Shown here: positions 13,426 through 28,698 of the stretch, piece by piece
Position numbering within the stretch: position 1 is the stretch's first letter
How the letters are laid out: each line of letters begins with the position of its first letter
Assembly: GCF_013409345.1 (NCBI RefSeq)
Contig: NZ_JACCBB010000001.1
Coordinates: 3,162,001 to 3,226,000, forward strand
Direction of reading: 5' to 3'
DNA: 64,000 bases
Source: Kineococcus aurantiacus
GTDB taxonomy: Bacteria > Actinomycetota > Actinomycetes > Actinomycetales > Kineococcaceae
The notes under the pieces: model-generated
The model's database searches: none
The model's input: only the letters and a program-made list of their open reading frames with translations
Told to the model about the DNA's origin: nothing
Program-made: the position numbers and the translations under genes

Positions 13426-14424
13426 GTGGACGTCGACGCCTTCCGAGCGGTGCACGAGCACGAGTGGGCGCGGCTGCGCAGCCTCGTCGCGCGCCGCCAC
13501 CTCGACGGCGCCGAGGCCGACGAGCTGGTCGCGCTCTACCAGCGCACCGCCACCCACCTGTCGGCGCTGCGCTCGGCCCAGCCCGAACCGGTGCTGCTGG
13601 ACCAGCTCTCGACGCTGCTCGTGCGGGCCCGCGCCCGCCTGACCGGCTCCCGGTACACCGCGTGGCGGCAGGTCGTGCACTACACGACGCGCGGCCTGCC
13701 CGCGGCGCTGTGGCGGCTGCGGTGGTGGACGACGGGCGCCTTCGTGTTCACGGCCGTCCTGGCCGTCGCCTCGGGGGTGTGGGTGGCCGGGAACCCCGCG
13801 GTGCAGGCCAGCCTCTTCGGGTCCGACGAGAACATCCGCCAGCTCGTGTACTCCGACTTCGAGGGCTACTACTCCGAGTACAGCCACGCGGCGTTCGCGG
13901 GGCGGGTGTGGACGAACAACGCGTGGGTCGCCGCGACGTGCGTGGCGCTGGGCATCACCGGCGTCCCGGTGCTGGTGTCGCTGGCGTACAACGCCGTCAA
14001 CGTGGGCCTGCAGGGCGGGCTGCTCGTCGAGCACGGCCGCGGGGAACTGTTCTTCGGGCTGATCCTGCCGCACGGGTTGCTGGAGCTGACCGCCGTGTTC
14101 GTCGCCGCCGGGGCCGGGCTGAAGCTGTTCTGGGCGTGGGTGTCCCCGGGCGCGCGGTCGCGCTCGCAGGCGCTGGCCACCGAGGGCCGGGCCATGGTCG
14201 GGGTGGCCCTGGGCCTGGTGGGCGTGCTGTTCGTCTCGGGGGTCATCGAGGGTTTCGTCACGCCCTCGGGCCTGCCGACGTGGGCGCGCATCGGGATCGG
14301 CGTGGTCGCCGAGGTCGCGTTCTGGAGCTACTGCTGGTTCCTGGGCCGCCCCGCCGCGGCGCAGGGGGAGACCGGCGACCTCGAGGCCCGCTACGCGGGG
14401 GACTCGGTGCCGGTCTCGGGCTGA
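13426..14424 (+). CDS. Stage II sporulation protein M (SpoIIM/DUF95) family membrane protein
   Basis: Integral membrane protein of 332 residues. A cytoplasmic helical N-terminal region (about 1-100, MDVDAFRAVHEHEWARLRSL) is typical of the non-sporulating actinobacterial branch. Five hydrophobic segments follow (about 105-130, 165-190, 195-250, 262-282, 290-310), with the conserved NNAWVAATCVALGITGVPVL and LPHGLLELTAVFVAAGAGL stretches. The family is named from Bacillus engulfment, but this lineage does not form endospores; a transport or envelope role is likely. Related genes usually neighbour RDD, DUF58 and MoxR genes. Its end overlaps the convergent gene by 34 bp. Confidence 0.9.
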   Translation: MDVDAFRAVHEHEWARLRSLVARRHLDGAEADELVALYQRTATHLSALRSAQPEPVLLDQLSTLLVRARARLTGSRYTAWRQVVHYTTRGLPAALWRLRWWTTGAFVFTAVLAVASGVWVAGNPAVQASLFGSDENIRQLVYSDFEGYYSEYSHAAFAGRVWTNNAWVAATCVALGITGVPVLVSLAYNAVNVGLQGGLLVEHGRGELFFGLILPHGLLELTAVFVAAGAGLKLFWAWVSPGARSRSQALATEGRAMVGVALGLVGVLFVSGVIEGFVTPSGLPTWARIGIGVVAEVAFWSYCWFLGRPAAAQGETGDLEARYAGDSVPVSG

Positions 14425-15161
14425 GCGCCCGCGGCGGACCGCCGCACCAGACCCGCCCGGAACCCCTCCAGGACCGCCGGGTCCGCGGCGCCGGCCACCA
14501 CGACCAGGCACGTCCCCCCACCGGGGTGCAGCAGCGGCGTGGGCCCGCCGGGCAGGGTCCCCTCCAGCAGGGCGCGGCCCACCGCGTGCACCTGCCCGGC
14601 GCTGCCGTGCAGCCCGTCGTGCCCCACGGGCCGGGCCAGCGCCCGGGCGAGCCCGTCGCCGGGGGCCCCGAACACCGGCCCGTCCAGGTGCAGGGGCGCG
14701 GTGACGAGGTCGGCCACGAGGGAGTCCAGGCCCTGACCCGTCGCGTCCTCCAGCAGCGCGCCCAGGACGACCAGACCCACCGCGGACCGGCGCACGACCT
14801 GCCCGGGGGAGGTGACCAGCGGGGTGTCCAGCACCCGTTGCAGCTTCTGCGCCGGGCGCAGGTCGTCGCGGCCCGCCACGGACGACGTCGCCGGCAGCCC
14901 CGAGGTGTGGTCCAGGAGCTGGCGCAGGGTGAAACCCCGCTCCGTCGGGCGGTCCAGGTCGACCGCGCCGACGTCGGCGAGCGCGTGCGCGGCGGTCGCC
15001 GTGAACACCTCGGTGAGCGGGCCCAGACCGACCACGGAGGTGGGGGTGAGGTTCCCCGCGGCGGCCTGCTCGACGCGGCCGTCCGCGGTGGAGGACACCG
15101 CCACGACCCCCGGGAACAGGCCCCCGCGCACCGCCCGCTCCAGCTCCCCGGCGAGGGTCAC
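14391..15161 (-). CDS. Serine hydrolase (beta-lactamase)-like protein lacking the catalytic SxxK
   Basis: A 256-residue protein of the class C beta-lactamase/PBP-like fold. The conserved LRQLLDHTSGLPA segment, the DLDRP turn and the LGALLEDATGQ helix align well with the family. The position of the nucleophile motif reads LGPLTEVFTA: Pro48 and Glu51 replace the Ser and Lys of SxxK. The second motif, normally YSN, reads RSA at 125-127. Both changes should abolish acylation, so it is probably a pseudoenzyme or binding protein. No signal peptide is evident, although relatives are usually exported. The GTG start overlaps the upstream DHFR-like stop by 4 bp, so they form an operon. Confidence 0.8.
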   Translation of the reverse strand: MTLAGELERAVRGGLFPGVVAVSSTADGRVEQAAAGNLTPTSVVGLGPLTEVFTATAAHALADVGAVDLDRPTERGFTLRQLLDHTSGLPATSSVAGRDDLRPAQKLQRVLDTPLVTSPGQVVRRSAVGLVVLGALLEDATGQGLDSLVADLVTAPLHLDGPVFGAPGDGLARALARPVGHDGLHGSAGQVHAVGRALLEGTLPGGPTPLLHPGGGTCLVVVAGAADPAVLEGFRAGLVRRSAAGAQPETGTESPA

Positions 15162-15736
15162 CGCCGCTCCAGCCGGGTCACGACGACCCCGTTGGCGAAC
15201 TGCTCCCGCTCCACCACGTCGAACGCCGTGGGGGAGAAGGTGCCCGCGACGACGGGCACCCCCGCGCCGGCCAGCACCGGGTAGGTCTTCAGGACCAGCT
15301 CGTCGATCTCCCCGAGCAGCGCCCCGGCCAGGGCGCCCCCGCCGCACAGCCACACGTCCAGCCCGGACCGGGCCTTCAGCTCCCGCACGAGGGCGACGGG
15401 GTCGTGGGCCAGGTGCACGTCGGGGTGCGGCGCCGCGGGCAGGCTGCGGGAGACGACGTGCTGCTCCAGGTGCGCGTACGGGCTCGGCGCCGACGGCAGG
15501 CCCACGCGGTAGGTGGCCAGCCCCATGAGGACGGTGTCGAACCGCCGGTTCGGCGCGTCGACCCCGAGGGGGCCGCGGAAGGCCGTGGGGACCGTCTCGG
15601 GGTAGTGGCTGGCCGTCCACCCCAGGTACTCGGCGAGCGCGTCCCCCTCGCCCTGGGGGAAGAAGTCGAACTCCCCGCCCGGGCCGGCGGTGAAGCCGTC
15701 GAGCGTGGTGCCCACGTAGTACACGAGTCGTCTCAC
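15158..15736 (-). CDS. Dihydrofolate reductase family (RibD C-terminal-like) protein
   Basis: A 192-residue reductase of the DHFR/RibD_C superfamily (YyaP/YwjB-like), probably using NADPH on an unknown small molecule. It opens with RRLVYYVGTTLDGFTAGPGG, the usual start of this family, then FDTVLMGLATYRVGL and the nucleotide-binding segment LDVWLCGGGALAGALLGEIDEL. It is not a true FolA: the folate-binding residues cannot be identified. GTG 15736 is the first start before the conserved strand; GTG 15724 is an alternative. It is the first gene of a two-gene operon with the serine-hydrolase-like gene. Confidence 0.85.
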   Translation of the reverse strand: MRRLVYYVGTTLDGFTAGPGGEFDFFPQGEGDALAEYLGWTASHYPETVPTAFRGPLGVDAPNRRFDTVLMGLATYRVGLPSAPSPYAHLEQHVVSRSLPAAPHPDVHLAHDPVALVRELKARSGLDVWLCGGGALAGALLGEIDELVLKTYPVLAGAGVPVVAGTFSPTAFDVVEREQFANGVVVTRLERR

Positions 15737-15783
15737 CCGGCCCAGCCAAGCGGGCCCGGCGCCGGCGGTGCAACCGGGCCCGG

Positions 15784-18700
15784 TCAGCTCGCCAGGGAGG
15801 GCCGGCGCAGGGAACCCAGCAGCTCGGCCGCCGGGGCGGGGCGGGCGAACCGGTAGCCCTGGGCGAGGGTGGCGCCGTAGGAGGCCAGGACCCGGGTCTG
15901 CGCGTCGTCCTCCACGCCCTCGGCGACGACGTCGATGCCCAGGGCCTGGCCGATGCCCAGCACGGCGCGCACGACGGCGTCGCAGCTGGGGTCGCGGCCC
16001 AGGCCGGCGACGAACTGCAGGTCGATCTTCAGCAGGTCCACGGGCAGCTCGGTGAGCCGGGCCAGACCCGAGTAGCCGGTGCCGAGGTCGTCGATGGCGA
16101 TGCGGACCCCGCGCCGGCGCAGGGCCTGCAGCTCCCCGCGCAGGGCGTCGGTGATGCGGGTCGTGTGGGTCTCGGTGAGCTCCAGGACGAGCAGCCCCGC
16201 GGACAGGCCCGTCTCGGCCAGGGTCCGGTCGACCTGGTCGACGAGCGACCCGCCGAGCTGCTCGGCCGAGACGTTGACGTGGACGGCGGGGGCGTCGGCG
16301 CCCAGCGCGCGCTCCCACGAGGCGGCCACGGCGCACGAGGCCCGCAGCACGAACTCGCCCACGGCGGGCATCAGCGGGGACGCCTCCAGCACGTCGAGGA
16401 ACGCGCCGGGGGCCAGCACGGTGCCGTCGGCCCGGCGCCAGCGCAGCAGGGTCTCCACGGCCTCGACGCGACCTGAACCGAGCTCCACGATGGGCTGGCC
16501 GAACATCTCGAACTCGCCGTCGGCCACGGCCCGGGCCAGTTCGGGCAGGAGGCGCTCGGCGCGTTCGAGGCGCTCGCGGTCGCGGTGGTCGTAGGCGTAG
16601 GCGCGGTTCTTGCCGGCGCGCTTGGCCGCGTACATGGCCAGATCGGCGTTCTGCAGCAGCCGGTCCAGCGTCCCGGGGTCCGCGTCGGCGGCGCGGTGGA
16701 CGGCGCTGCCGATGCTGGCGCCGACGCTGAACGTCCCGGTGCCCAGCACGACGGGTTCGCGGACGGCGGCCAGCAGGCGGCGGGCCAGGTGCTCCAGGCC
16801 CTCGTCGTCGGTGTCGGGGCAGACCACGGCGAACTCGTCGCCGCCCAGGCGCGCCACGGTGTCCCCGCCCCGGCACAGGCCCGACAGGCGGTGGGCGACC
16901 TCGCGCAGCACGTCGTCGCCGCAGGCGTGGCCGGCGGTGTCGTTGACGGCCTTGAACCCGTCGAGGTCCAGGAGCAGGACGCCGACGCGCCGGCCGTCGC
17001 CCCCACCGGCCCGCAGGGCGCGGGCGAGCCGCTCGCGCAGCAGGGCCCGGTTCGGCAGCCCCGTCAGGGCGTCGTGCATGGCCTGGTGGACGAGGGCCTG
17101 CTCGGCCTCCTTGCGGGCGGTGACGTCCTCGACGAGGCACAACAGGTACGGCTCGACGCCGGCGGGGCTGACGCGGCTGACGTTGGTGCGGCCCCAGCCG
17201 GTGCCGCCGTCGGCGTGCACGTAGCGGTGCTCGAACTGCGCCTCGTCGTCCGCGCCGGCCAGCAGCGGGGCCAGGTGGGCGCTGAACTCCTCGCGGTCCT
17301 GCGCCGGGACGAGGGCGTGGACGTCCAGGACGCCGAGCTCCTCGGGCAGCAGGCCGGTGAACTCCGTCATGGTGGCGTTGACCTGCAGGATGCGGCCGGC
17401 CACCTCCCCGAGGCCGACGATCAGCATGCCCACGGGGGCGGTGTCGAAGGCCGCGCGGAAACGGGTCTCGGAGTCGGCCAGGCGCGCCTGGGTGGTGACC
17501 TGCTCGGTGACGTCGGTGCCCACGGCGAGGGAGCCGGTGCGCCGGCCGTCCGCGTCCACCAGCCAGCTGGTGGTCAGGGCGAACTGCCGGCGCTCGCCGT
17601 CGGCGCGCACGAGCGTCCACTGCTGGGTGACGGCCGCGCCCGCCGGGTCCAGGGGGTGGGTGAAGACGCCGGGGCCCGGGGCGATGCCCAGCGCGGCGGC
17701 GCGCTCGGCGACCTCGGCGGGGTCGTGCAGCAGCTCGACGCTGCGTCCCAGGACGTCCGCGGGGGCGTGGCCCAGCAGCCGCCGGGCCCCCTCGTTGAAC
17801 ACGGTGACGTCGCCGTGCAGGTCGATGGCGACGATGAGCTGCTCGGTCGCGCCGGACAGGATCCCGGCGTAGAGGTCGCGGGTGCGGGCGACCCGGGCGG
17901 CCGCGGCGCGGTTGTCGGTGACGTCGTGGAAGGCGATGAGGGCGCCCTCGGACCAGTTCGCGCCCTCGTTGCGCGGCAGCCGGCGGCCGGTGACGTTGAC
18001 GGTGCGGGTGGTCCCGTCGAGGGTGCTGCGGAAGGTGAAGTCGGTGGACTCGACGCTCTCGCCGCCCAGGACGCGCGCCAGCGGCAGCCGGGCGCCGGCC
18101 ACGGGGTCCCCGGCCGCGTCGAGGATCTCGACGAACTCCCCGAAGCGTTCCACCGGGGTGCCCGGCGGCAGCGTCGGGTAGATGCCCAGCGCCGAGCTGT
18201 TCGCCATGAGCAGCGCGCCGCCGGCGGTGTAGACGGACATGCCGTCGCTGCTGGCGTCGAACACCGTGCGCAGCAGGTCCGCCTGGCGCTCGGCCTCGCC
18301 CCGGGCCGTGAGCAGGGACGTCACGAGCTGGGCACGCTCCTGGCGGTGCAGCACCAGGACCAGCGTCACCACCGACGTGAGCAGGACGAAGAGCTGGACG
18401 CCGACGAGCCGCTGCAGCGGGGGAGCCGTCGCGAACATGCCGACGCCGTGCAGGGCGAGGACGGCGTGCAGCAGGTCGACGAGCAGCGCGTTGGCGGCGG
18501 CCACCCGCGCGGGGAACCGGCTGCCGGCCCAGAAGGAGACGGCGACGACGAGGAACGACAGGGAGTGCAGGTGCTCGACGTCGAAGACCCACGCGAAGAC
18601 CGCCGCCGACCCGGCGTTGACCGCGACGACCTCCAGCCAGCCGGCGCCGGGCGCGCGGCGGGTGGTGCGGTCGGCCAGCAGCAGGCACAGGCCCGCGACG

Positions 18701-19206
18701 GTCAGGGTGGCGGTGCCGCCCGTGACGGTCGTCAGGAACGTCACCGGCAGCGGGGTGCCCAGCAGGGAGGCGCGCGGCCAGGCCGTCACGAGCGCGCCCG
18801 CGGCCGAGCCGCCGACGGCGGCGCCCACGAGCGCCCACGCGTCCTCGCGCTGGGTCATCCGGGTGACGCCCGGGCGCCAGCGGTGGAACAGCGCGCAGGC
18901 GACCCACGTCTGCACCAGGTCACCGACCGCGAGGGCCGCCGCGACCCCCGTCGGCACCCCTGTCAGGGTGTCGACGAGGGCGCTGAGGGCGAGGACGCCG
19001 GCGCCGGCGACGAGGCGCCGGACCCGGTGCGCCCAGGACGCGCCCACCCAGACGGCGGCGACGGCGGCGGCGGGCCAGAAGGCGGCGAGGGGGCTGCCGT
19101 CGACGCGCGCGGCGCGGCCCAGGAGCAGCGCGGCGGTGTACGCGAGCGCGAACCCGACGGTGGGCAGCACGGGGTGCGCCCTGAGCGTCGCGACCGTCCT
19201 CCCCAC
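15784..19206 (-). CDS. Membrane GGDEF-EAL protein with MASE1-like sensor and PAS domains
   Basis: A 1140-residue cyclic-di-GMP enzyme. The first 290 residues contain about eight membrane helices of MASE1 type (FWPAAAVAAVWVGASW). Three PAS-like modules follow (about 310-430, 440-560, 570-690). The GGDEF domain at about 700-860 has an intact LGGDEFAVV near 790, so diguanylate cyclase activity is plausible. The EAL domain at about 885-1130 has ETLLRW in place of EALLRW but keeps VNVSAEQL, LVLELTETH, IAIDDLGTGYSGL, LLKIDLQFV and VVAEGVED, so phosphodiesterase activity is also plausible. The GTG start lies 3 bp after the stop of the upstream ABC gene, suggesting readthrough transcription from the exporter operon. 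Confidence 0.93.
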   Translation of the reverse strand: MGRTVATLRAHPVLPTVGFALAYTAALLLGRAARVDGSPLAAFWPAAAVAAVWVGASWAHRVRRLVAGAGVLALSALVDTLTGVPTGVAAALAVGDLVQTWVACALFHRWRPGVTRMTQREDAWALVGAAVGGSAAGALVTAWPRASLLGTPLPVTFLTTVTGGTATLTVAGLCLLLADRTTRRAPGAGWLEVVAVNAGSAAVFAWVFDVEHLHSLSFLVVAVSFWAGSRFPARVAAANALLVDLLHAVLALHGVGMFATAPPLQRLVGVQLFVLLTSVVTLVLVLHRQERAQLVTSLLTARGEAERQADLLRTVFDASSDGMSVYTAGGALLMANSSALGIYPTLPPGTPVERFGEFVEILDAAGDPVAGARLPLARVLGGESVESTDFTFRSTLDGTTRTVNVTGRRLPRNEGANWSEGALIAFHDVTDNRAAAARVARTRDLYAGILSGATEQLIVAIDLHGDVTVFNEGARRLLGHAPADVLGRSVELLHDPAEVAERAAALGIAPGPGVFTHPLDPAGAAVTQQWTLVRADGERRQFALTTSWLVDADGRRTGSLAVGTDVTEQVTTQARLADSETRFRAAFDTAPVGMLIVGLGEVAGRILQVNATMTEFTGLLPEELGVLDVHALVPAQDREEFSAHLAPLLAGADDEAQFEHRYVHADGGTGWGRTNVSRVSPAGVEPYLLCLVEDVTARKEAEQALVHQAMHDALTGLPNRALLRERLARALRAGGGDGRRVGVLLLDLDGFKAVNDTAGHACGDDVLREVAHRLSGLCRGGDTVARLGGDEFAVVCPDTDDEGLEHLARRLLAAVREPVVLGTGTFSVGASIGSAVHRAADADPGTLDRLLQNADLAMYAAKRAGKNRAYAYDHRDRERLERAERLLPELARAVADGEFEMFGQPIVELGSGRVEAVETLLRWRRADGTVLAPGAFLDVLEASPLMPAVGEFVLRASCAVAASWERALGADAPAVHVNVSAEQLGGSLVDQVDRTLAETGLSAGLLVLELTETHTTRITDALRGELQALRRRGVRIAIDDLGTGYSGLARLTELPVDLLKIDLQFVAGLGRDPSCDAVVRAVLGIGQALGIDVVAEGVEDDAQTRVLASYGATLAQGYRFARPAPAAELLGSLRRPSLAS

Positions 19207-19209
19207 CGT

Positions 19210-21057
19210 CTAGGTGTCGGCGGCGGCCTGGGGGGCTTGAGCCGGGCGGGACCAGGTGTCCCACAGCCGGGCGTACCGGCCCCCCGACCGGAGGAGTTCG
19301 GCGTGGGTGCCGAGCTCGGCGATCCGGCCCCCGGCCACGACCGCGATCCGGTCGCACGCGGCGGCCTGGCTGAGCCGGTGCGCCACCACGAGGGCGGTCC
19401 GGCCCCGCACGAGGGCCGCGGCGGACAGCTCCAGGTCCCGCGCCCCGGCGCTGCCGGCCTCGGCGGTCGCTTCGTCGAGCACGACGACGGGCGGGTCGCG
19501 CAGGACGAGGCGGGCCAGGGCCAGCTGCTGGGCGCGGGCCGGGGACAGCGCCAGCTCACCGGGGCCGACGCGGGTGCCGAGGCCGTCGGGCAGCGCGCTG
19601 ACCCAGTCGTCGCCGCCGACGACGCGCAGCGCGGCGTGCACGTCCTCGTCGGTGGCGCCGGGGCGGGCCAGGGTGAGGTCGTCGCGCAGGGTGCCGGTGA
19701 AGACGTGGGACTCCTGGGCGATGACGCCGACGCGTTCGCGCACCGACCCCGCGTCGAGGTCGGCGAGGGCCACCGGCTCCCCGTCCGGCTCCCCGACCAG
19801 CTCGACGGTCCCGCCGGTGGGGGGGAAGACCCCGCCGACGATCGCGGCGAGGGTCGTCTTGCCGGCCCCGCTCTCCCCGACGACGGCCAGCGACGTGCCG
19901 GCGGGGACGTCGAGGTCGATGCCGCGCAGCACCGGGGCGGCGGTGGGGTCGTCGGAGTAGCGGTGCGTCAGGCCCCGGACGCGGACCCCGACGCGGGACC
20001 GGGGTGCGCGCGCCAGGACGGCCGGGTCGGGGGCGGGGTCCTCGGGCAGGTCGACGACCCCCACGAGCCGGTTCAGCGCGGCCGCGGCGCGGGACACCTC
20101 GTCGAAGGACAGCAGCAGCACGCCCAGCGGCCCGAAGAGGCGGTGGAACAGCAGGGCGGCGGCGGTGACGGCGCCGACGGTGACGGCATCGGCGCGCACG
20201 AGCCAGAACCCGGTGGCCAGCAGCGCGGACAGCCCGACGGCCTCGGCGGCGTTCATGGACATGGAGAACCGGGCGAAGACGCGCAGCGCGGCCCGGGAGG
20301 CCCCGACCGTGCGCCGCGAGGCGGCCCGCACGCGCTCACCCTGCAGGGGGGCCATGCGGTAGGCGTGCACGGTCGAGGCGCCGTGCAGCGACTGCAGGAA
20401 CACCTGCGAGCGCTGGGCCGCGACGGCGCGCTCGGTGGCGTACAGGGGCCCGGCCTTCGGCAGGTACCAGCGCAGGCTGGCGACGTGGACGGGGAAGACG
20501 GCGCAGAAGGCCAGGGCCAGCCGCCAGTCCAGGGACAGGAACCCCACCGCGGACAGTGCGACGGTGACCACGGAGGTCAGGACGTTCGCGGCGAGCTGGA
20601 CGGAGCTGGTGAACAGCTCGACGTCCTCGGTGACGCGGGAGGCGACGTCGCCGGAACCGGCCCGTTCCAGGACGCGGGGGTCCATCCGCAGCGACCGGTC
20701 GACGACGCGCTCGCGCAGGTCGGCGGCCACGGAGGCCCCGAGGCGCTCGGCGTCGCGGCGGGCCAGGGCCGTGGTGAGGGCGGTGAGGACGGCCACGACG
20801 GACAGCTGCACGAGCAGCGGGGTCAGCCCGTCCCCGGCCCGGACGACGTCGACGGCCCGGCCCAGCAGCAGCGGCAGCGCGACGGTCCCGGCGCTGGACA
20901 GGACCGTGGTGGTCAGGGCCGCGGCGAGCTCGCCGGGGTGGGCGCGGGCGGTCCGCCACAGGACGGCCGCGCTGCGGCGGCCGGGCGCGACGGGCAGGGC
21001 CCCGGTCGGGGTCCCGGTCGGGGTCCCGGGCGCGGTGAGGGGGGCCGGCGCGCTCAC
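19210..21057 (-). CDS. ABC exporter half-transporter with degenerate signature motif
   Basis: A 615-residue membrane-NBD fusion. Six membrane helices span about 45-330. The NBD has a good Walker A (VVGESGAGKTTL, near 392-400) and Walker B with catalytic Glu (PPVVVLDEATAE), plus the switch His in VVAHRLSQ. The signature motif, normally LSGGQ, reads LSPAR near 503. Together with its partner encoded just upstream, which has LSGGQ but no Walker A, it would form one competent and one dead ATP site. The GTG start overlaps the upstream stop by 4 bp. The N-terminus contains a short TPTGTPTG repeat. The substrate is unknown; heterodimeric exporters of this type move drugs, lipids or peptides. Confidence 0.9.
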   Translation of the reverse strand: MSAPAPLTAPGTPTGTPTGALPVAPGRRSAAVLWRTARAHPGELAAALTTTVLSSAGTVALPLLLGRAVDVVRAGDGLTPLLVQLSVVAVLTALTTALARRDAERLGASVAADLRERVVDRSLRMDPRVLERAGSGDVASRVTEDVELFTSSVQLAANVLTSVVTVALSAVGFLSLDWRLALAFCAVFPVHVASLRWYLPKAGPLYATERAVAAQRSQVFLQSLHGASTVHAYRMAPLQGERVRAASRRTVGASRAALRVFARFSMSMNAAEAVGLSALLATGFWLVRADAVTVGAVTAAALLFHRLFGPLGVLLLSFDEVSRAAAALNRLVGVVDLPEDPAPDPAVLARAPRSRVGVRVRGLTHRYSDDPTAAPVLRGIDLDVPAGTSLAVVGESGAGKTTLAAIVGGVFPPTGGTVELVGEPDGEPVALADLDAGSVRERVGVIAQESHVFTGTLRDDLTLARPGATDEDVHAALRVVGGDDWVSALPDGLGTRVGPGELALSPARAQQLALARLVLRDPPVVVLDEATAEAGSAGARDLELSAAALVRGRTALVVAHRLSQAAACDRIAVVAGGRIAELGTHAELLRSGGRYARLWDTWSRPAQAPQAAADT

Positions 21058-22595
21058 CGGGTCACCGCCGCGGCGTACTCGGCGCCGAGCTCGGGGTCCT
21101 CGAGCAGCTCGGCGTGGGTGCCGGTGGCGTGCCGGCCCCGCCCGGTGAGCAGGACGACGCGGTCGCAGCGCGACAGCAGCAGCGGGGACGTAGTGATGAG
21201 CACGGTCGTCCCGGCCCCCGCCCGCAGCCGGCGGACACCGGCGGCCACGCGGTCCTCGGTCACCGCGTCCAGCGCGGTCGTGGGGTCGCGCAGCACGAGC
21301 ACCTCCGGGTCGGTGGCCAGGGCCCGGGCCAGGCCGATGCGCTGGCGCTGACCGCCGGACAGGTTCGTGCCGCCGTCGGCCAGGGGGGTCTGCAGCGCGG
21401 TGGGCGCGGCGGCCGCGGCCAGCGCGTCGGCCAGGGCGACCCCGCGTCCGGCCGCGACCGGGCCGGTGTCGAGGGCGTCGGCGAGGGTCTCGCCCAGCAG
21501 GTGCGTCGGGGACGGCTCCACGAGGGTGCCCGCCCCGGCGAACCCGGCGGTGACGGCGTCGGCGGTGGCGGTGTCGGTCGTGACGACCCCCAGCACCTCC
21601 CCGGCCCGCGGGCGCAGCTGCGCGGCGTGCGGGCGCTGGACCTCGGCGCGCGGGGGCGGCGGCGTCAGCAGCGCGGCGACCCGGCGGGCGCTGGCGCGGG
21701 AGACGGCGAGCTGCTGCACGCAGGCGCTGACGTTGCGCACCGGGTCGGCCAGGAAGCTGGCCATGCCCACGACGGTGACGAACTCCCCGAGGTCCAGGCG
21801 CCCGCGGGCGACGAAGGCGCCGGCGACGGCGGCCGTCGCGACGAGGACGGCGCCGGTGGCCAGGGTGCTGACGCCGACGACGACCGACGTGGCACCCGCG
21901 GCCCCCACGGCGGCGCGCCGGGAAACGGAGCTGGCCAGGTGGTAGCGGCGGACGGCCTCGGGGACGCCGCCGAACCCGCGCAGCGGCCGCAGCCCGGCGA
22001 GCAGGTCCGCGGCGACGGCGGCGGCCAGGCCCGCGCTGCGCTGCCGGTCGTGCACGCGGCGCTCCAGGCGCGGGGCCAGGGCCTGCAGCCCCAGCACGAC
22101 GACGGGGACGGCCACCAGCAGGCCCAGGCCCAGGGCGAGGTCGATGCGCAGCAGCACCGCGGCGGCCACGACCATCCCGAAGCAGCCGGAGGCCAGGAAG
22201 CTGACCAGGCCCAGGGCCTCGGCGGTGTGCCGGGTGTCGGAGGTGGCCACCGACAGCGCCTCGCCGACCTGCCGGTCCCGCAGCGCGGCCGGGTCGTCGA
22301 GGACGGCGCGGGTGACGGCGGTGCGCAGCAGGTGCGCCTCCTCGAACTGCGCGACGTCCACGGTCCAGAACGCGAACGTCCCGGCGGTGCTCAGGACGGC
22401 GAACAGGACCAGGACGCCCACGACCGACAGGACGATCGCGCGGACGTCGCCGGTGCCGACGGCCCGGTCGACGGCCAGGCCGATGGCGACGGGCACGAGC
22501 GCCTCGCAGGTCTGGTGGACCATCGAGGACCCGCAGCCGACGGCGACGGCCCGCCGGTGCCTGCGCAGGACGTCGAGGACGGGACGGGGAGACAC
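21054..22595 (-). CDS. ABC exporter half-transporter lacking Walker A and canonical Walker B
   Basis: A 514-residue membrane-NBD fusion. The membrane domain spans about 15-290 (MVHQTCEALVPVAIGLAVD at its start). The NBD is heavily reduced: where Walker A belongs the sequence reads LGVVTTDTATADAVTAGF, with no GxxGxGK. Walker B reads VLVLRDPTTALD, with Arg-Asp for Asp-Glu. LSGGQRQRIGLARAL is intact at 411-415. This subunit therefore should not bind ATP normally but can complete the partner's site. Similar subunits exist in other actinobacteria. GTG 22595 is chosen because the ABC N-terminus starts there; TAGCGT lies 8 nt upstream. A 32-bp-arm inverted repeat lies just before it. Confidence 0.88.
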   Translation of the reverse strand: MSPRPVLDVLRRHRRAVAVGCGSSMVHQTCEALVPVAIGLAVDRAVGTGDVRAIVLSVVGVLVLFAVLSTAGTFAFWTVDVAQFEEAHLLRTAVTRAVLDDPAALRDRQVGEALSVATSDTRHTAEALGLVSFLASGCFGMVVAAAVLLRIDLALGLGLLVAVPVVVLGLQALAPRLERRVHDRQRSAGLAAAVAADLLAGLRPLRGFGGVPEAVRRYHLASSVSRRAAVGAAGATSVVVGVSTLATGAVLVATAAVAGAFVARGRLDLGEFVTVVGMASFLADPVRNVSACVQQLAVSRASARRVAALLTPPPPRAEVQRPHAAQLRPRAGEVLGVVTTDTATADAVTAGFAGAGTLVEPSPTHLLGETLADALDTGPVAAGRGVALADALAAAAAPTALQTPLADGGTNLSGGQRQRIGLARALATDPEVLVLRDPTTALDAVTEDRVAAGVRRLRAGAGTTVLITTSPLLLSRCDRVVLLTGRGRHATGTHAELLEDPELGAEYAAAVTR

Positions 22596-22619: not shown

Positions 22620-22696
22620 GGGGCGGGGTGGGCCATCGTTGTGACAACGCTGCCGATCACCGCGAGCGTTGTCACAACGATGGCCCACCCCGCCCC
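22620..22696. repeat. Inverted repeat, family A copy 2 (32-bp perfect arms, 13-nt loop)
   Basis: Arms 22620-22651 and 22665-22696 are exact reverse complements. The inner ATCGTTGTGACAACGCT core is shared with 1519-1571, whereas the outer 15 bp differ. It lies between two same-strand ABC operons, so it probably terminates the upstream one. The following gene starts 25 bp beyond it. Confidence 0.85.
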
Positions 22697-22723: not shown

Positions 22724-24541
22724 TCAGTCCACCTCGGCGGCGGCCCCGGCGAACTGCGCCTCGTGCAGCCGCGCGTACGCCCCGCCCGCCGCGACCAGCT
22801 CCTCGTGCCGCCCCTGCTCCACGACCCGCCCGGCCTCCATCACCAGGATCAGGTCGGCGTCGCGGATCGTGGACAGCCGGTGGGCGATGACCAGGCTCGT
22901 GCGGTCGCGCCGCAGCTGCGCCATGGCCTGCTGCACGACCCGCTCGGTGCGGGTGTCCACCGAGCTCGTCGCCTCGTCCAGCACCAGCACCTGCGGTCGG
23001 GCCAGCTGGGCCCGCGCGATCGTCACCAGCTGCTTCTCCCCGGCGCTCAGGCGGCCCGCGTCGTCGTCGACGACCGTGGCGTACCCCTCCGGCAGCGCGT
23101 CCACGACCGTGTCCACCGACGCCGCCCGCGCCGCCTCCAGGACCTCCTCGCGGGTCGCCGACGGCCGCGAGTACGCGATGTTCTCCTCGATCGTGCCCTC
23201 GAACAGCCAGGTGTCCTGCAGCACGATCGCCGCCCGCGAGCGCAGGTCCCGCCGCGACATCGTCGCGGTGTCCACGCCGTCGAGCAGGATCCGGCCCGAG
23301 CCCACCTCGTAGTAGCGCAGCAGCAGGTTCACCAGCGTCGTCTTGCCCGCCCCGGTCGGCCCGACGATCGCGACCGTGCTGCCCGCCTCGGCCACGAACG
23401 ACAGGTCCTCGATGAGCGGGGCGTCGGGGGTGTACCGGAACGAGACGTGCTCGAACTCGACGCGCCCCGGGCCCGAGGGCTTCGGCCCGTCCACCGGGTC
23501 CGGCGACAGCTCCGGCGCGTCGAGCACGTCGAACACCCGCTCGGCCGAGGCGACCCCGGACTGCAGCAGGTTCGCCATCGACCCCAGCTGCGCCAGCGGC
23601 TGGGTGAACTGCCGGGAGTACTGCACGAACGCCTGCACCCCGCCGATGGTGATCGACCCGCCCGTCACCATCGTCGCGCCCACCACGGCGATCGCGACGT
23701 AGACCAGGTTCCCGATGAGCATCGTCGAGGGCATGATCGTCCCGGAGAGGAACTGCGCGCCGGCGCTCGCTGCGTACAGCTCGGCGTTCTTGGCGGCGAA
23801 CCGGGCCCGGACCTCCTCGCGGCGGCCGAACGCCGTCACGACGTCGTGCCCCGTGAAGGCCTCCTCGATCTGCGCGTTCAGCGCGCCCGTCTCGCGCCAC
23901 TGCCCCACGAACAGCGGCTGGGACCGCTTGGCGATGGTGGCGACGACGACCAGGGTCAGCGGGATCGCCACCAGCGCCACCAGCGCCAGCCGCCAGCTGA
24001 TGGTGAACATCATGACGACGACCCCGACCACCGTCAGCGCCGAGACGAGGGCCTGCGACACCGTCTGCTGCAGGCTCTGGGAGATGTTGTCGATGTCGTT
24101 CGTCACGCGCGAGAGCAGGTCCCCGCGCGGGGTGGAGTCGACGTGCGACAGCGGCAGCCGGTGCAGCTTGGCCTCGACGTCGCCGCGCAGCCGGAACACG
24201 GTGCGCTGCACGACCCGGTTCAGCAGCAGCCCCTGCAGGAACGACAGGCCCGCCGACAGCACGCACACCGCGGCGACCTCGGCGATCGTGCGGGCCAGCC
24301 CGGACCGGTCCAGGGGCCCGCCGCCCAGCGCGGCCCGCACGACGAGGTCGGTCGCGTCCCCCAGCAGCCTGGGCACCAGGACGGTGAGGGCCACGCTGGC
24401 GAGGGCCAGGACGGACACGACCGCCAGCCCGGCCGCGTCCGGGCCCATCCGGGACAGCAGGCGCCGGGCCGAGGGCCCGAACGTGACGGCCTTCGCGCCG
24501 GGCGGCCCGGCCATCCGCACCGGACCCCCGCGCCCGCTCAC
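22724..24541 (-). CDS. ABC exporter half-transporter (canonical NBD)
   Basis: A 605-residue membrane-NBD fusion, second gene of a heterodimeric exporter operon. The membrane domain has six helices between about 40 and 345, and the coupling region includes LSRVTNDIDNISQSLQQT. The NBD has Walker A (IVGPTGAGKTTLVNLLLRYY), signature LSAGEKQLVTIARAQLARP, Walker B with catalytic Glu (VLVLDEATSSVD) and switch His (VIAHRLSTIRDAD). The GTG start at 24541 overlaps the upstream stop by 4 bp; ATG 24514 is possible. Its partner has Asp in place of the catalytic Glu, so only one ATP site of the pair should hydrolyse well, as in BmrCD or TM287/288-type exporters. Confidence 0.93.
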   Translation of the reverse strand: MSGRGGPVRMAGPPGAKAVTFGPSARRLLSRMGPDAAGLAVVSVLALASVALTVLVPRLLGDATDLVVRAALGGGPLDRSGLARTIAEVAAVCVLSAGLSFLQGLLLNRVVQRTVFRLRGDVEAKLHRLPLSHVDSTPRGDLLSRVTNDIDNISQSLQQTVSQALVSALTVVGVVVMMFTISWRLALVALVAIPLTLVVVATIAKRSQPLFVGQWRETGALNAQIEEAFTGHDVVTAFGRREEVRARFAAKNAELYAASAGAQFLSGTIMPSTMLIGNLVYVAIAVVGATMVTGGSITIGGVQAFVQYSRQFTQPLAQLGSMANLLQSGVASAERVFDVLDAPELSPDPVDGPKPSGPGRVEFEHVSFRYTPDAPLIEDLSFVAEAGSTVAIVGPTGAGKTTLVNLLLRYYEVGSGRILLDGVDTATMSRRDLRSRAAIVLQDTWLFEGTIEENIAYSRPSATREEVLEAARAASVDTVVDALPEGYATVVDDDAGRLSAGEKQLVTIARAQLARPQVLVLDEATSSVDTRTERVVQQAMAQLRRDRTSLVIAHRLSTIRDADLILVMEAGRVVEQGRHEELVAAGGAYARLHEAQFAGAAAEVD

Positions 24542-26265
24542 GCCGCCACCTCCAGCTGGCTGGCGACGATCTCCTCGTACGTCGGGCAGGTCCCGAGCAG
24601 TTCGCGGTGGGTGCCGCGCCCCACGACCTTCCCGCCGTCCAGCACGACGATCTCGTCGGCCTCGACGATGGTCGAGACCCGTTGCGCCACCACGAGGACG
24701 GAGACCCCGGGCAGGTCGCGGGCGAGGGCGGCGCGCAACCGCGCGTCGGTTGCGGTGTCCAGCGCCGAGAAGGCGTCGTCGAACACGAACACCTCCGGGC
24801 GGGCCACGACCAGCCGCGCGATGGACAGCCGTTGCCGCTGCCCGCCGGAGACGTTCGTGCCGCCCTGGGAGACCGGCGCGTCCAGCCCCTCGGGCCGGTC
24901 CCGGACGAAGTCCTCGGCCTGCGCCGTCCGCAGCGCCGCCCACAGCTCCTCGTCGGAGGCGTCGGGGCGGCCGAAGCGCAGGTTCGAGGCGATGGTCCCG
25001 GCGAACAGGTACGGCCGCTGCGGGACCAGCCCCACGCGCCGGCGCAGGTCCCCGTCGGCCAGGGACCGCACGTCGACGCCGTCGAGCAGCACCGCCCCGG
25101 TCGAGGCGTCGGCGAGCCGGGTCGCGAGGTTCACCACGGTGGTCTTGCCCGAACCGGTCGAGCCGATGACGGCCGTCGTCCGGCCCGGGGCGACGTCGAA
25201 GGAGACGCGGTCCAGGACGGGCCGGTCGGCGCCGGGGTGGGAGAACGACACCTCGCGGAACTCCAGCCGCCCCCCGGTGCTGGCGGGGGCGACGGGGGCC
25301 TGCGGCTCGTGGACGCTCGGCGGGCTCCGCAGGACCTCCTGGATGCGCCCGGCCGAGACCGCGGCGCGCGGGCCCATGACGGCCAGGAACGTCGTCATCA
25401 TGACGCCCATGAGGATCAGCACCAGGTAGGACAGGAACGCGATGAGGGAACCGATGCCCAGTTCCCCGGTCTCCACGCGGCTCGCGCCGAACCACACGAC
25501 GGCGGCGCTGGCCAGGTTCATGACGAGCGTCACGAACGGGAACACGACGGAGAACAGCCGGCCCGTGCGCAGCGCGACGTCGGTGAGCTCGGCGTTGGCC
25601 CGCTCGAACCGGGCCCGCTCGGCGTCCTCGCGCACGAAACCCCGCACGACCCGCAGCCCCGTGAGCTGCTCGCGCAGCACGCGGTTGACGGTGTCGAGCC
25701 TCTTCTGCAGCTGCCCGAACAGCGGGCCCAGGCGCGTCATGACCAGCGCCATGACGGCGACCAGCAGCGGCACGGCGACGACGACGAGCCAGCTCAGCCA
25801 GACGTCCTCGCGCAGGGCCATGACGATCCCGCCCACGCACAGGATGGGCGCGGAGACGATCATGGTGCACGTCACGAGCACGAGCATCTGCACCTGCTGG
25901 ACGTCGTTGGTCCCGCGGGTGATGAGCGAGGGGGCGCCGAACCGCCCCACCTCGGCCCTGGACAGGCTCAGGACGTGGTCGAACACGGCCGCGCGCACGT
26001 CGCGGCCCACGGCCATCGCCGCGTGGGCGCCGCAGCGGACGGCGGAGATGGTCGCCACGACCTGGACGAGGGTGACGGCGAGCATGAGCGCACCGGTGCG
26101 CCAGATGAGGCCGGTGTCCCCGGTGACGACGCCCCGGTCGATGATCTCGGCGTTCAGGCGGGGCAGGTACAGGGAGGCGACCGTCTGCAGGACCTGCAGC
26201 ACGACCACCGCCGCCAGCAGCCCGCGGTGCGGGCGCAGGTGTTCTCGCAGGAGGGTGAGCAGCAC
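24538..26265 (-). CDS. ABC exporter half-transporter (degenerate-site subunit)
   Basis: A 575-residue membrane-NBD fusion and first gene of the operon. Six membrane helices lie within about 15-310; LPRLNAEIIDRGVVTGD is typical of the extracellular entry of helix 2. The NBD has Walker A (VIGSTGSGKTTVVNLATRL), signature VSGGQRQRLSIARLVVARP and Walker B VFVFDDAFSALD, in which Asp replaces the catalytic Glu. This substitution is the hallmark of the degenerate-site partner in heterodimeric exporters. Start GTG 26265 is the first codon of the conserved LLREHLRPHRG opening. The substrate is not predictable. Upstream lies the third family B repeat, about 90 bp away. Confidence 0.93.
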   Translation of the reverse strand: MLLTLLREHLRPHRGLLAAVVVLQVLQTVASLYLPRLNAEIIDRGVVTGDTGLIWRTGALMLAVTLVQVVATISAVRCGAHAAMAVGRDVRAAVFDHVLSLSRAEVGRFGAPSLITRGTNDVQQVQMLVLVTCTMIVSAPILCVGGIVMALREDVWLSWLVVVAVPLLVAVMALVMTRLGPLFGQLQKRLDTVNRVLREQLTGLRVVRGFVREDAERARFERANAELTDVALRTGRLFSVVFPFVTLVMNLASAAVVWFGASRVETGELGIGSLIAFLSYLVLILMGVMMTTFLAVMGPRAAVSAGRIQEVLRSPPSVHEPQAPVAPASTGGRLEFREVSFSHPGADRPVLDRVSFDVAPGRTTAVIGSTGSGKTTVVNLATRLADASTGAVLLDGVDVRSLADGDLRRRVGLVPQRPYLFAGTIASNLRFGRPDASDEELWAALRTAQAEDFVRDRPEGLDAPVSQGGTNVSGGQRQRLSIARLVVARPEVFVFDDAFSALDTATDARLRAALARDLPGVSVLVVAQRVSTIVEADEIVVLDGGKVVGRGTHRELLGTCPTYEEIVASQLEVAA

Positions 26266-26406: not shown

Positions 26407-27708
26407 TCACAACCGCCCCGCCGCCTTCAGCGCCAGGTACCGGTCCGCCAGCGCCGGCGCCAGCCCCTCGGGGTCGGCGTGCACCACCTCCACGCCCAGC
26501 CGCGTCAGCAGCCGCGCCGTCCGGTCCCGCACCGCCGTCGCCGTCTCGGCCGCCGCCGCGGTGTAGACGGCCTCGGCGTCGGAGCGGTCGCGGGCCAGCG
26601 CCGCCAGGGCCGGGTCGTCGACGGCGGCCAGGACGACGGTGTGCCGGGTCGCCAGCTGCTCCAGCACCCCCAGCAGCCCCGAGTCCAGGACGGAGGGGTC
26701 CAGCGCCGTCAGCAGCACCACCAGCGAGCGCTGCCGGGCCGTGGTCCGCACCTCCGTCGCCACCGCGTCCCAGTCGGCCTCCACGAGGGAGGGTTCCAGC
26801 GGCGCCAGCGCCTCCACCAGCGAGGGCAGCAGGTCCCCGCGCGCGCCCCCGCGCACCCGCGCCCGGACCCGGCGGTCGTGCGCGACGAGGTCCACGCGGT
26901 CCCCGGCGCGCGAGGCCAGCGCCGCGGTCAGCAGCGCCGCCTCGATCTGCGCGTCGAGCCGCACCGTCGGGTGCTCACCCTCCAGCCGGGCCGCCGAGGT
27001 GCGGGAGGTGTCGACGACCAGCAGCACCCGCCGGTCCCGCTCGGGCCGCCAGGTGCGCACGACGACGGCCTGCCGGCGGGCGCTGGCCCGCCAGTCGATG
27101 GAGCGCACGTCGTCGCCGTCGACGTAGTCGCGCAGCGAGTCGAACTCCGTGCCCTGCCCGCGGTGCTGCACGGCGCTGCGCCCGTCCAGCTCCCGCAGCC
27201 GCGCCAGCCGCGAGGGCAGGTGCTTGCGGGAGGTGAACGGCGGCAGCACGCGCAGCCGCCCCGGCACCGGCGCCGACCGCTGCCGGCCCGCCAGCCCCAG
27301 CGGCCCGGCGGTCCGCACCGTCACCCGGTCCGCCAGCCGGTCCCCGCGCCGGGTCGGGACGAGGACGACCTCCAGCCGGCGGCGCTCACCGGGGGGCAGG
27401 TCCAGCCGGTGGCGGGTGCCCGTGGCCCCCGCCGAGGGCACCCACGCGTCGCGCAGTACGCCCCGCACCCGCCGGCCGCCGGTGTTCTGCACGAGCAGGC
27501 CGGTGCTGCGGCGCTCCCCGAGCCGGACCGCCGGCAGCGGCGGCCGGCTGATCGCCAGCCGCCGCGGCGAGGGGGCCAGCGCGGCGTCCAGGCCGACGAG
27601 CACCGCGCACACGAGCAGCCACACCCAGAACGCGGCCCAGCCCGGCCAGGCCACGACGAGGACCAGGCCCAGCAGGGCCAGGCCCGCGGACCGCCCCGTG
27701 ACGTGCAC
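26407..27708 (-). CDS. DUF58 domain-containing protein
   Basis: A 433-residue protein with two N-terminal membrane helices (about 7-45), then an extracytoplasmic or cytoplasmic beta-rich region, then the DUF58 core at roughly 195-300. The core signature GTEFDSLRDYVDGDDVRSID followed by WRASARR is intact. The C-terminal half resembles a von Willebrand A fold, with DTSRTS in place of a full DxSxS metal site. DUF58 proteins work with MoxR ATPases, which are thought to remodel or load metal into partner proteins at the envelope. It lies 12 bp downstream of moxR in the same operon. GTG is the start. Confidence 0.92.
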   Translation of the reverse strand: MHVTGRSAGLALLGLVLVVAWPGWAAFWVWLLVCAVLVGLDAALAPSPRRLAISRPPLPAVRLGERRSTGLLVQNTGGRRVRGVLRDAWVPSAGATGTRHRLDLPPGERRRLEVVLVPTRRGDRLADRVTVRTAGPLGLAGRQRSAPVPGRLRVLPPFTSRKHLPSRLARLRELDGRSAVQHRGQGTEFDSLRDYVDGDDVRSIDWRASARRQAVVVRTWRPERDRRVLLVVDTSRTSAARLEGEHPTVRLDAQIEAALLTAALASRAGDRVDLVAHDRRVRARVRGGARGDLLPSLVEALAPLEPSLVEADWDAVATEVRTTARQRSLVVLLTALDPSVLDSGLLGVLEQLATRHTVVLAAVDDPALAALARDRSDAEAVYTAAAAETATAVRDRTARLLTRLGVEVVHADPEGLAPALADRYLALKAAGRL

Positions 27709-27720
27709 CCCGGCCCCCGC

Positions 27721-28698
27721 TCAGCGCGGGACCGGGACGGAACCCAGCACCGAGTCCAGCACCGCGTCCACGCTCACCCCGTCCAGCTCCGCCTCCGGGC
27801 GCAGCTGCACGCGGTGCCGCAGCGTCGGGCGCGCCAGCGACTTCACGTCGTCGGGGGAGACGTAGTCGCGCCCCGACAGCCACGCCCACGCCCGCGCCGT
27901 CGCCAGCAGCGACGTCGCCCCGCGCGGGGAGACGCCCAGGGCCAGCGAGGGGGACTCGCGGGTGGCGCGGCACACGTCGACGACGTAGCCGATGACCTCG
28001 CGCGAGCACTGCACGCGGCGCACCGCGTCGGCCGCGATGGACAGCTGCTCGGGCGTCGCCACGGCCCGGACGCCCGCCGCGGCCAGGTCGCGCGGGTCGA
28101 ACCCCGTCGCGTGCCGGGCCAGCACCTCGACCTCGTCCTCGCGCGGGGGCAGCGGCAGCGTGAGCTTGAGCAGGAACCGGTCCAGCTGCGCCTCCGGCAG
28201 CGGGTAGGTGCCCTCGTACTCCACGGGGTTCTGGGTGGCCGCGACGATGAACGGGTCCGGCAGCCGGCGGGGCTCGCCGTCGATGGAGACCTGCTTCTCC
28301 TCCATGGCCTCCAGCAGCGACGCCTGCGTCTTGGGGGGCGTGCGGTTGATCTCGTCGGCCAGCAGGATGTTGGTGAACACCGGGCCCTCGCGGAAGGAGA
28401 ACCGCGCGGTCTGCGCGTCGTAGACGAGCGAGCCCGTCACGTCGCCCGGCATGAGGTCGGGGGTGAACTGCACGCGCTTGGTGTCCAGGTGCAGCGCCGC
28501 CGACAGGCTGCGCACCAGCAGCGTCTTGGCCACCCCCGGCACGCCCTCGAGCAGGACGTGCCCGCGGCACAGCACGGCGATGACCAGCCCGGTCACGGCG
28601 GCGTCCTGGCCGACGACGGCCTTGGCGACCTCCTGGCGGACGGCCCGCAGGGCCTGCCGGGCGTCCTCGACGGCCTCGGTCGAGGGGGTCTCAGTCAC
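27721..28698 (-). CDS. MoxR family AAA+ ATPase
   Basis: A 325-residue AAA_3 chaperone-like ATPase. Walker A is GVPGVAKTLLVRSL (Ala before Lys, as usual in MoxR), Walker B is NILLADEINRTPPKTQASLL, sensor 1 lies in FIVAATQNPVEYEGTYPLPE, and the C-terminal AAA lid contains SPRGATSLLATARAWAW. The LEGVPGVAKT and EAMEEKQVSIDG stretches are characteristic. It probably acts with the DUF58 product and the membrane proteins encoded in the same operon. The GTG start overlaps the upstream DUF4350 stop by 4 bp; GGAAGG lies 10 nt before it. Confidence 0.95.
   Translation of the reverse strand: MTETPSTEAVEDARQALRAVRQEVAKAVVGQDAAVTGLVIAVLCRGHVLLEGVPGVAKTLLVRSLSAALHLDTKRVQFTPDLMPGDVTGSLVYDAQTARFSFREGPVFTNILLADEINRTPPKTQASLLEAMEEKQVSIDGEPRRLPDPFIVAATQNPVEYEGTYPLPEAQLDRFLLKLTLPLPPREDEVEVLARHATGFDPRDLAAAGVRAVATPEQLSIAADAVRRVQCSREVIGYVVDVCRATRESPSLALGVSPRGATSLLATARAWAWLSGRDYVSPDDVKSLARPTLRHRVQLRPEAELDGVSVDAVLDSVLGSVPVPR

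Follow-up and report, generated by a model that had tools for sequence, protein, structure and literature searches.

An ABC exporter gene pair of Kineococcus aurantiacus with reciprocal loss of ATP-site motifs, predicted to retain a single ATP site

Asymmetric ATP-binding cassette (ABC) exporters such as MsRv1273c/72c, TmrAB, and TM287/288 share one fold and assemble one consensus ATP site from the Walker A and Walker B motifs of one half and the LSGGQ signature of the other. In MsRv1273c/72c, the catalytic Glu and the switch His of one half are, on our reading of the cited passages of that study, replaced by an Asp and a Gln; the same passages have ATP bound at the degenerate site with this half's Walker A, and call that site essential. 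Why a crippled second ATP site persists in so many heterodimeric exporters is a puzzle. Other asymmetric exporters, we presume, show the same division of labor and the same ATP binding at the degenerate site. Here we describe two adjoining genes, encoding subunits A and B of an ABC exporter, in a 64,000-nucleotide stretch of the Kineococcus aurantiacus genome (contig NZ_JACCBB010000001.1, positions 3,162,001 to 3,226,000; "the window", whose numbering is used below), in which evolution appears to have removed the second site altogether: unlike MsRv1273c/72c, this pair lacks the P-loop with which the degenerate site would hold ATP.

Reciprocal motif loss in subunits A and B

Both genes lie on the minus strand (A, 22595..21054; B, 21057..19210), begin with GTG, and overlap by the four bases GTGA; their translations span 513 and 615 amino acids, respectively. 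Subunit A, the putative signature donor, joins an exporter membrane domain to a reduced nucleotide-binding domain (NBD) whose translation contains no G-x4-GK[ST] pattern. At the expected P-loop site (residues 334–353, 21537..21596), where GK[ST] is also absent from the alignments, the A model (predicted local distance difference test score, pLDDT, 90.6) has a strand (334–339) and a helix (342–353) joined by a two-residue turn, a connection too short for a P-loop. The LSGGQ signature (residues 412–416, 21348..21362) is present, with S413 to Q416 invariant in an alignment of 57 rows, and so are the signature helix (414–428 in the model) and the strands behind it; the D-loop, TALD (21267..21278), is likewise retained, with D443 invariant in the 57 rows. 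Walker B reads VLVLRD (residues 432–437, 21285..21302; VLVLRDPTTALD), with Asp changed to Arg and Glu to Asp, and TTSP (in ITTSPLL; residues 468–471, 21183..21194) replaces the switch His. The absence of the A-loop, the Q-loop Gln, and the switch His extends the list of losses drawn up in an earlier sequence-only reading of this DNA.

Subunit B, the putative ATP holder, shows the converse pattern. Its translation and alignment give a Walker A (GESGAGKTT; residues 394–402, 19852..19878), a Q-loop Gln (in VIAQES), a Walker B (VVVLDE; residues 524–529, 19471..19488; VVVLDEATAEAG) with invariant D528 and E529, and an invariant switch His (H560, in VVAHRLS; 19378..19380). The signature position is occupied by LSPAR (in LSPARAQ; residues 504–508, 19534..19548) and the D-loop position by AEAG (residues 532–535, 19453..19464). 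At the start of the signature helix, Q510 and L514 are conserved among B proteins, while A513, A515, and R516 are nearly invariant. The sequence-only reading had described A as keeping LSGGQ with an RD-type Walker B and no Walker A, and B as keeping Walker A and B with LSPAR for a signature; both descriptions proved accurate, and its conclusion that the reciprocal loss leaves exactly one composite ATP site agrees with the motifs, which allow only one complete site.

Domain searches gave the same picture. Pfam ABC_membrane matches both subunits, while ABC_tran matches the whole domain in B and only profile positions 84–136 of 137 in A. Among 130 ABC_tran-matching stretches in the same genome (150 of 211 candidates scored), the only matches starting beyond profile position 13, a UvrA fragment (71–137) aside, were those of two A subunits (starts at 43 and 82): a second, paralogous one and the window's own. 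In the alignment, the NBD of the window's A comprises 197 residues vs. 245 in its canonical neighbor.

Both structure models are single chains, that of A built from the 57-row alignment. The B model (pLDDT 89.9) places a strand (389–394) and a helix (400–407) around an ordinary P-loop. When A was searched with Foldseek, the first seven solved folds were subunits of MsRv1273c/72c, TmrAB, and TM287/288, all asymmetric exporters. VIA-align ranked chain B of TmrAB (Z 28.1) level with CydDC (28.1) and near McjD (27.3), and because of this tie the structural ranking supports an ABC exporter fold rather than the asymmetric kind specifically. The B model matches the same structural families, and full-chain matches in the Protein Data Bank were obtained for both halves.

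The losses are shared by every relative with data. Among 90 distinct relatives of A, Walker A (0/90), the A-loop aromatic (0/90), the Q-loop Gln (0/90), and the switch His (0/89) are uniformly missing, while SGGQ and the D-loop Asp are each present in 89 of 89 and an xxSP motif occupies the switch-His site in 86 of 89. The 67 B proteins mirror this pattern: all have Walker A, the A-loop aromatic, and the Q-loop Gln (67/67 each), and all with data have the Walker B Asp and Glu and the switch His (59/59 each); SGGQ occurs in 0 of 65, and the D-loop Asp in 33 of 59. The canonical control subunits, asymmetric ones included, keep Walker A throughout (80/80 in the alignment, 60/60 in the tree set), in line with the earlier suggestion that this pair is more extreme than usual asymmetric exporters. 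Orthologues with intact motifs, which the sequence-only reading had named as the finding that would overturn it, were searched for in this census, and none was found for Walker A among the 90 A relatives or for SGGQ among the 65 B proteins with data. Chance agreement is opposed by the 90 concordant relatives, by purifying selection on codons (see below), and by the 80 controls that keep Walker A.

These counts come from at least 80 named loci, a draw of 296 Actinomycetota genomes (four candidates scored per genome), and the DNA around strong matches. A first query with A had given at least one match in every genome searched (59/59, including the genome of the query), the weaker ones scoring like ordinary ABC proteins; in the 30 strongly matching loci, of which the window's is one, the aligned A subunits had no Walker A (0/30). 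In the 296-genome draw, 36 matches above 390 bits in 22 genomes were followed by a gap down to ~340 bits, where ordinary exporters start. Altogether 285 open reading frames (ORFs) were matched, from which 32 with a matched range below 440 or above 900 residues and 10 unclassified ones were dropped before the census. No counter-example to the motif pattern was found among these 42: the 10 unclassified rows all have Walker A, and the 32 comprise seven full-length exporters that are fusions and carry Walker A twice, an A fragment (L146) with FSGGQ and no Walker A, an over-long B row (L024) that has Walker A but lacks SGGQ, 16 B pieces that stop short of Walker A, and seven short stretches from L146 and from canonical or unassigned proteins. 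Before counting, duplicates were removed along with two rows (L147 and L084) that had first been classed as partners and proved canonical on inspection, and denominators below 90 or 67 reflect remaining rows without letters at the columns concerned. The window's A, its copy (L003), and L113 (a duplicate of L032) stand outside the 90, while the window's B is within the 67. Finally, in 20 further loci, hand-picked from the listed strong matches of a 394-genome Actinomycetes survey (19 genus codes, ORFs found by canonical queries only), A lacked Walker A and had SGGQ while B had Walker A and lacked SGGQ in 20 of 20.

The pair might still be an ordinary asymmetric exporter whose degenerate site binds ATP weakly through other residues, given that MsRv1273c/72c, in the passages cited, does bind ATP there. 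The conservation of Walker B lends this some substance: while the loss of Walker A noted in the sequence-only reading turned out to be constant, its RD-type Walker B did not, as the Asp is kept in 18 of 89 A relatives and the Glu in 52 of 89, and part of the chemistry of the dead site is retained in some. Weak binding of this kind nevertheless appears improbable: the P-loop itself is gone from the A model, the A-loop aromatic, Gln, and His are absent from all A relatives with data, and the signature that would face the nucleotide has been lost from B. Yeast Pdr5, among the most deviant transporters, has a Lys-to-Cys change within its Walker A according to the cited passages of a review of degenerate sites, which names it among the largest deviations (PMC7756269).

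Ancestry, selection, and distribution of the pair

In a tree of 139 rows, the 45 A rows formed one clade and the 34 B rows another, each with a support of 100, and a tree from the membrane domains only recovered the same two clades with the same support, so that clade membership is independent of the NBD motifs. All 18 canonical rows on A's side of the full tree combine LSGGQ or VSGGQ with a Walker B ending in DD, as found in the faulty half of asymmetric pairs, and for this reason A looks like a further step from such a faulty half, from which it would have descended. B's side holds LSAGE and LSAGQ subunits alongside ordinary LSGGQ/DE ones. We infer that the motif loss occurred once, before the two main clades split.

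Comparison with four congeners indicates purifying selection on subunit A, although the constraint on its NBD is the weakest among the four compared. The ratio of nonsynonymous to synonymous substitution rates (dN/dS) was 0.14–0.28 for the membrane domain of A and 0.31–0.45 for its NBD, vs. 0.30–0.37 for the NBD of B and 0.17–0.35 for the NBDs of the canonical neighbors. Within the genus, A is shortened around the lost P-loop in six of the eight congeners that have the gene (the window's included), the flanking strands having gone from the window's A and from L004–L008; in the other two (L009 and L010), Walker A is likewise missing, yet the strands before and after the lost P-loop are kept. 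These two would represent an intermediate stage of an erosion that apparently continues within the genus.

Such continuing erosion is also what would be expected if A were a dying gene in this strain or genus. However, the same losses recur in 90 relatives over many families, the reading frames are open, dN/dS is well below 1 in both domains, and SGGQ and the D-loop are strictly kept, making local decay extremely unlikely. For this strain in particular it was rejected on account of the 90 relatives and the dN/dS values. The reciprocal loss is instead an old, conserved trait of a large clade, which excludes local decay.

Several observations weigh against this account, in addition to the Walker B residues kept by some relatives. 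The census groups were set by profile scores, so that the absence of motifs is partly built in, the membrane-only tree serving as the guard. The trees were quick ones with SH-aLRT support only and midpoint rooting, and TetA and TetB, two plasmid-encoded relatives discussed below, sit on long branches. The split that defines A's side has a support of 93 in the full tree only, and a Walker B ending in DD is also found in 6 of the 42 canonical rows across that split. The four canonical rows nearest to B have LSGGQ and an intact Walker B (DE), giving no support to an LSAGE-type ancestry. The NBD of A has the highest dN/dS of the four NBDs in all four species comparisons, and the B monomer superposes poorly overall on solved structures (TMq 0.39–0.51 in the rows shown).

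The family was found in 187 of 394 Actinomycetes genomes, about half, at E 1e-115 or better. This threshold lies between the best presumed non-family score (355.7 bits) and five presumed family members (at least 535 bits; three are census loci); matches were inspected singly down to ~E 1e-188. One of 151 Chloroflexota genomes has a pair (L162:318-4234), both halves of which show the pattern; this could reflect either a transfer from Actinomycetota or a binning error. No pair was found in 199 Bacillota and 200 Pseudomonadota genomes, empty counts that by themselves show nothing. Few candidates were scored per genome in these surveys (six to nine in the three further phyla), so that copies may be missed. 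A plasmid search with two A subunits (E 1e-10 and 1e-20) found no Corynebacterium record; since TetA and TetB could be reached by accession only, such searches are too weak to exclude distant members.

Gene pairing and genomic surroundings

Under a strict rule on coordinates, 66 of 93 loci have B immediately after A; L129 shows this order as well, with matched ranges that overlap. A further 22 loci end too early to tell and four have no B downstream, which gives 67 of 71 informative loci, or 65 of 69 when repeated loci (the window and L003, L032 and L113) are counted once. In the other four, of which three belong to named Streptomyces, a single giant nonribosomal peptide synthetase (NRPS) gene lies between the halves, with B ~11 kb upstream of A on the same strand, a layout that we take to be that of the coelichelin cluster. 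In one of these (L153), an NRPS frame of 3661 amino acids separates B from A, and beyond it lie what we read from the translations as a binding protein, an importer ATPase (14386-15267), a permease-like protein, and a monooxygenase-like protein. By our own score rule, the clade membership of A and B was concordant in 64 of 64 pairs.

Directly upstream of the A–B pair lies a canonical asymmetric ABC exporter pair (22724-26265), one half of which (24538-26265) has VSGGQ, a Walker B ending in DD, and a His-to-Gln change, and the other (22724-24565) LSAGE and a Walker B ending in DE. The Asp and the Gln look like the changes in MsRv1273c (Asp497 and Gln528 in the cited passages). By its motifs, this pair shows a milder form of the same asymmetry, and both stages of the trend stand side by side. 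Their proximity also makes a swap of partners conceivable, in which A and B would homodimerize or combine with other half-transporters such as these. We consider this very unlikely: an A homodimer would lack Walker A and a B homodimer the signature, so that neither has a complete site; 67 of 71 informative loci have B after A, and the other four have it across one NRPS gene; and one genome (G010) has no canonical pair within 19.5 kb around its A–B pair.

The same genome holds a second, distantly related reciprocal-loss pair (L001, 3171-4874 and 4871-6640; G000:C1:1605170-1608639), which adjoins a gene that we read from its translation as a GMP synthase. No substrate hint was found among the neighbors of the A–B pair in the window, whose named members are the ABC pair, DUF58, MoxR-type AAA, PAS-GGDEF-EAL, and beta-lactamase-family proteins; six of the ten submitted ORFs had no Pfam match. 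The large PAS-GGDEF-EAL protein (15784-19206) is encoded directly downstream of the A–B pair and the beta-lactamase-family protein (PF00144) at 14391-15773, while the DUF58 and MoxR-type AAA genes (26407-29124) lie upstream of the ABC cluster. The genome contains 14 copies of a 43-base hairpin repeat (CGTTGTGACAACGCT, 13 bases, AGCGTTGTCACAACG), vs. 0 for a reversed control pattern. Two copies fall in the window, at 1524-1566 and at 22637-22679, the latter between the ordinary ABC pair and the A–B pair, and another lies ~1.8 kb before the second reciprocal-loss pair (near 1350-1390 of L001). Its core, TTGTSACAA, was not found in five congener loci, and the repeat resembles a REP-like or terminator element specific to the strain or species.

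Proposed mechanism and comparison with known systems

The pair quite probably forms an obligate heterodimeric transporter of the ABC exporter fold (ABCB-like, type IV) with a single ATP site. Motif conservation supports one such site per A–B pair and the absence of an ordinary degenerate site from both faces. Specifically, B would hold one MgATP through its Walker A, A-loop, Q-loop, Walker B, and His, and A would close over it with LSGGQ and the D-loop. The opposite site would be gone from both faces, as A lacks the P-loop needed for holding a nucleotide and B the signature needed for clamping it, so that the dead site would bind no nucleotide while the pair still pumps, probably outward and at a cost of one ATP per cycle. 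For ordinary asymmetric exporters, the cited passages of PMC12038006 propose that ATP bound at the degenerate site glues the NBDs together; with this site missing, something other than ATP must act as the glue, and protein–protein contacts may hold the dead side instead. Conservation of the SP motif in A and of the Q510/L514 region in B suggests a specialized contact between them. It is about as likely as not that the pair typifies a large class of ABC exporters that occur naturally with a single site, one NBD serving as a dedicated non-nucleotide clamp (signature and D-loop only) whose former ATP face has been rebuilt as a fixed contact, with the xxSP of A opposite a PAQAQ-type motif of B.

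Outward transport has to be weighed against uptake. IrtAB and YbtPQ, which presumably take up siderophores despite their exporter fold, are among the structural matches of our models, the fold alone is compatible with either direction, and one subfamily of the A–B family sits in siderophore clusters. A role as an importer is nonetheless quite improbable, as in one such cluster a putative importer-type ATPase already adjoins the pair (the L153 gene described above), the cited passages of PMC12161575 place an uptake system, CchCDEF, at the corresponding Streptomyces coelicolor locus, and TetAB is described as an efflux system in passages of PMC8304765 and in a title cited by PMC7400432. Export thus remains the preferred direction.

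TetA and TetB of the Corynebacterium striatum plasmid pTP10 are among the closest named parallels: like subunit A, TetA lacks Walker A and keeps LSGGQ; like subunit B, TetB has a Walker A (GTSGAGKST) and lacks SGGQ; and the two fall in the A and B clades. The window pair scores far below the cut-offs of the NCBIfam TetAB models NF000506 and NF000103 (55.1 vs. 1025 and 194 vs. 999 bits) and is therefore not TetAB itself, and among the 25 best NCBIfam models for each protein neither the window pair nor five further family proteins exceeded a curated cut-off. A title in the reference list of PMC7400432, and also passages of PMC8304765, report that TetAB of pTP10 confers tetracycline and oxacillin resistance in C. 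glutamicum, so that a phenotype of the transport type is on record for at least one pair of this kind.

By gene order, CchG/CchI would be another member. The cited passages of PMC12161575 name CchGI (SCO0491, SCO0493) as the presumed coelichelin exporter of S. coelicolor, and the four loci with the order partner, ~11 kb NRPS gene, and A carry a family pair; the likeness is one of gene order and family. Whereas the halves of CchG/CchI are split by the NRPS gene, those of the window adjoin and overlap, and the window pair lies outside a coelichelin-type NRPS cluster as judged by its named neighbors. Relatives are linked to a hydroxamate siderophore and to tetracyclines. StrV/StrW, beside the streptomycin cluster, may also belong to the family. 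The cited passages of PMC6804068 describe them as two ABC-type transporter genes.

More distant parallels differ in architecture. In the cited passages of PMC7756269, all motifs of one site are changed in Pdr5 and the facing signature is LNVEQ, but its domain order is inverse (NBD before the membrane domain) and its Walker A is substituted rather than missing as a loop. In the human isoform ABCB5-beta, the cited passages of PMC11391348 describe an N-terminally truncated NBD without Walker A and A-loop; this protein carries two NBDs in one chain and is not a dedicated signature-donor subunit like A.

In the open PMC papers searched, judged by listings and passages, we found no description of a bacterial exporter family with a missing P-loop, nor any paper pointing out the loss in the already-named members TetAB and, by gene order, CchGI. 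The conserved loss also means that some products labeled as the ATP-binding protein of an ABC transporter may not bind ATP. Given the phenotype reported for TetAB and the substrate presumed for CchG/CchI, a member by gene order, the question of a one-nucleotide ABC exporter becomes directly testable. Like ABCB-type (type IV) exporters, each half of the window pair has an exporter membrane domain followed by a C-terminal NBD, and the two halves are encoded together. Asymmetric exporters keep an ATP-binding P-loop in their degenerate site, whereas this loop is missing from the window's A, from 90 of 90 relatives, and from the A model. By its motifs, the family thus appears to be an extreme form of the asymmetric heterodimeric exporter, with the degenerate site gone from both faces.

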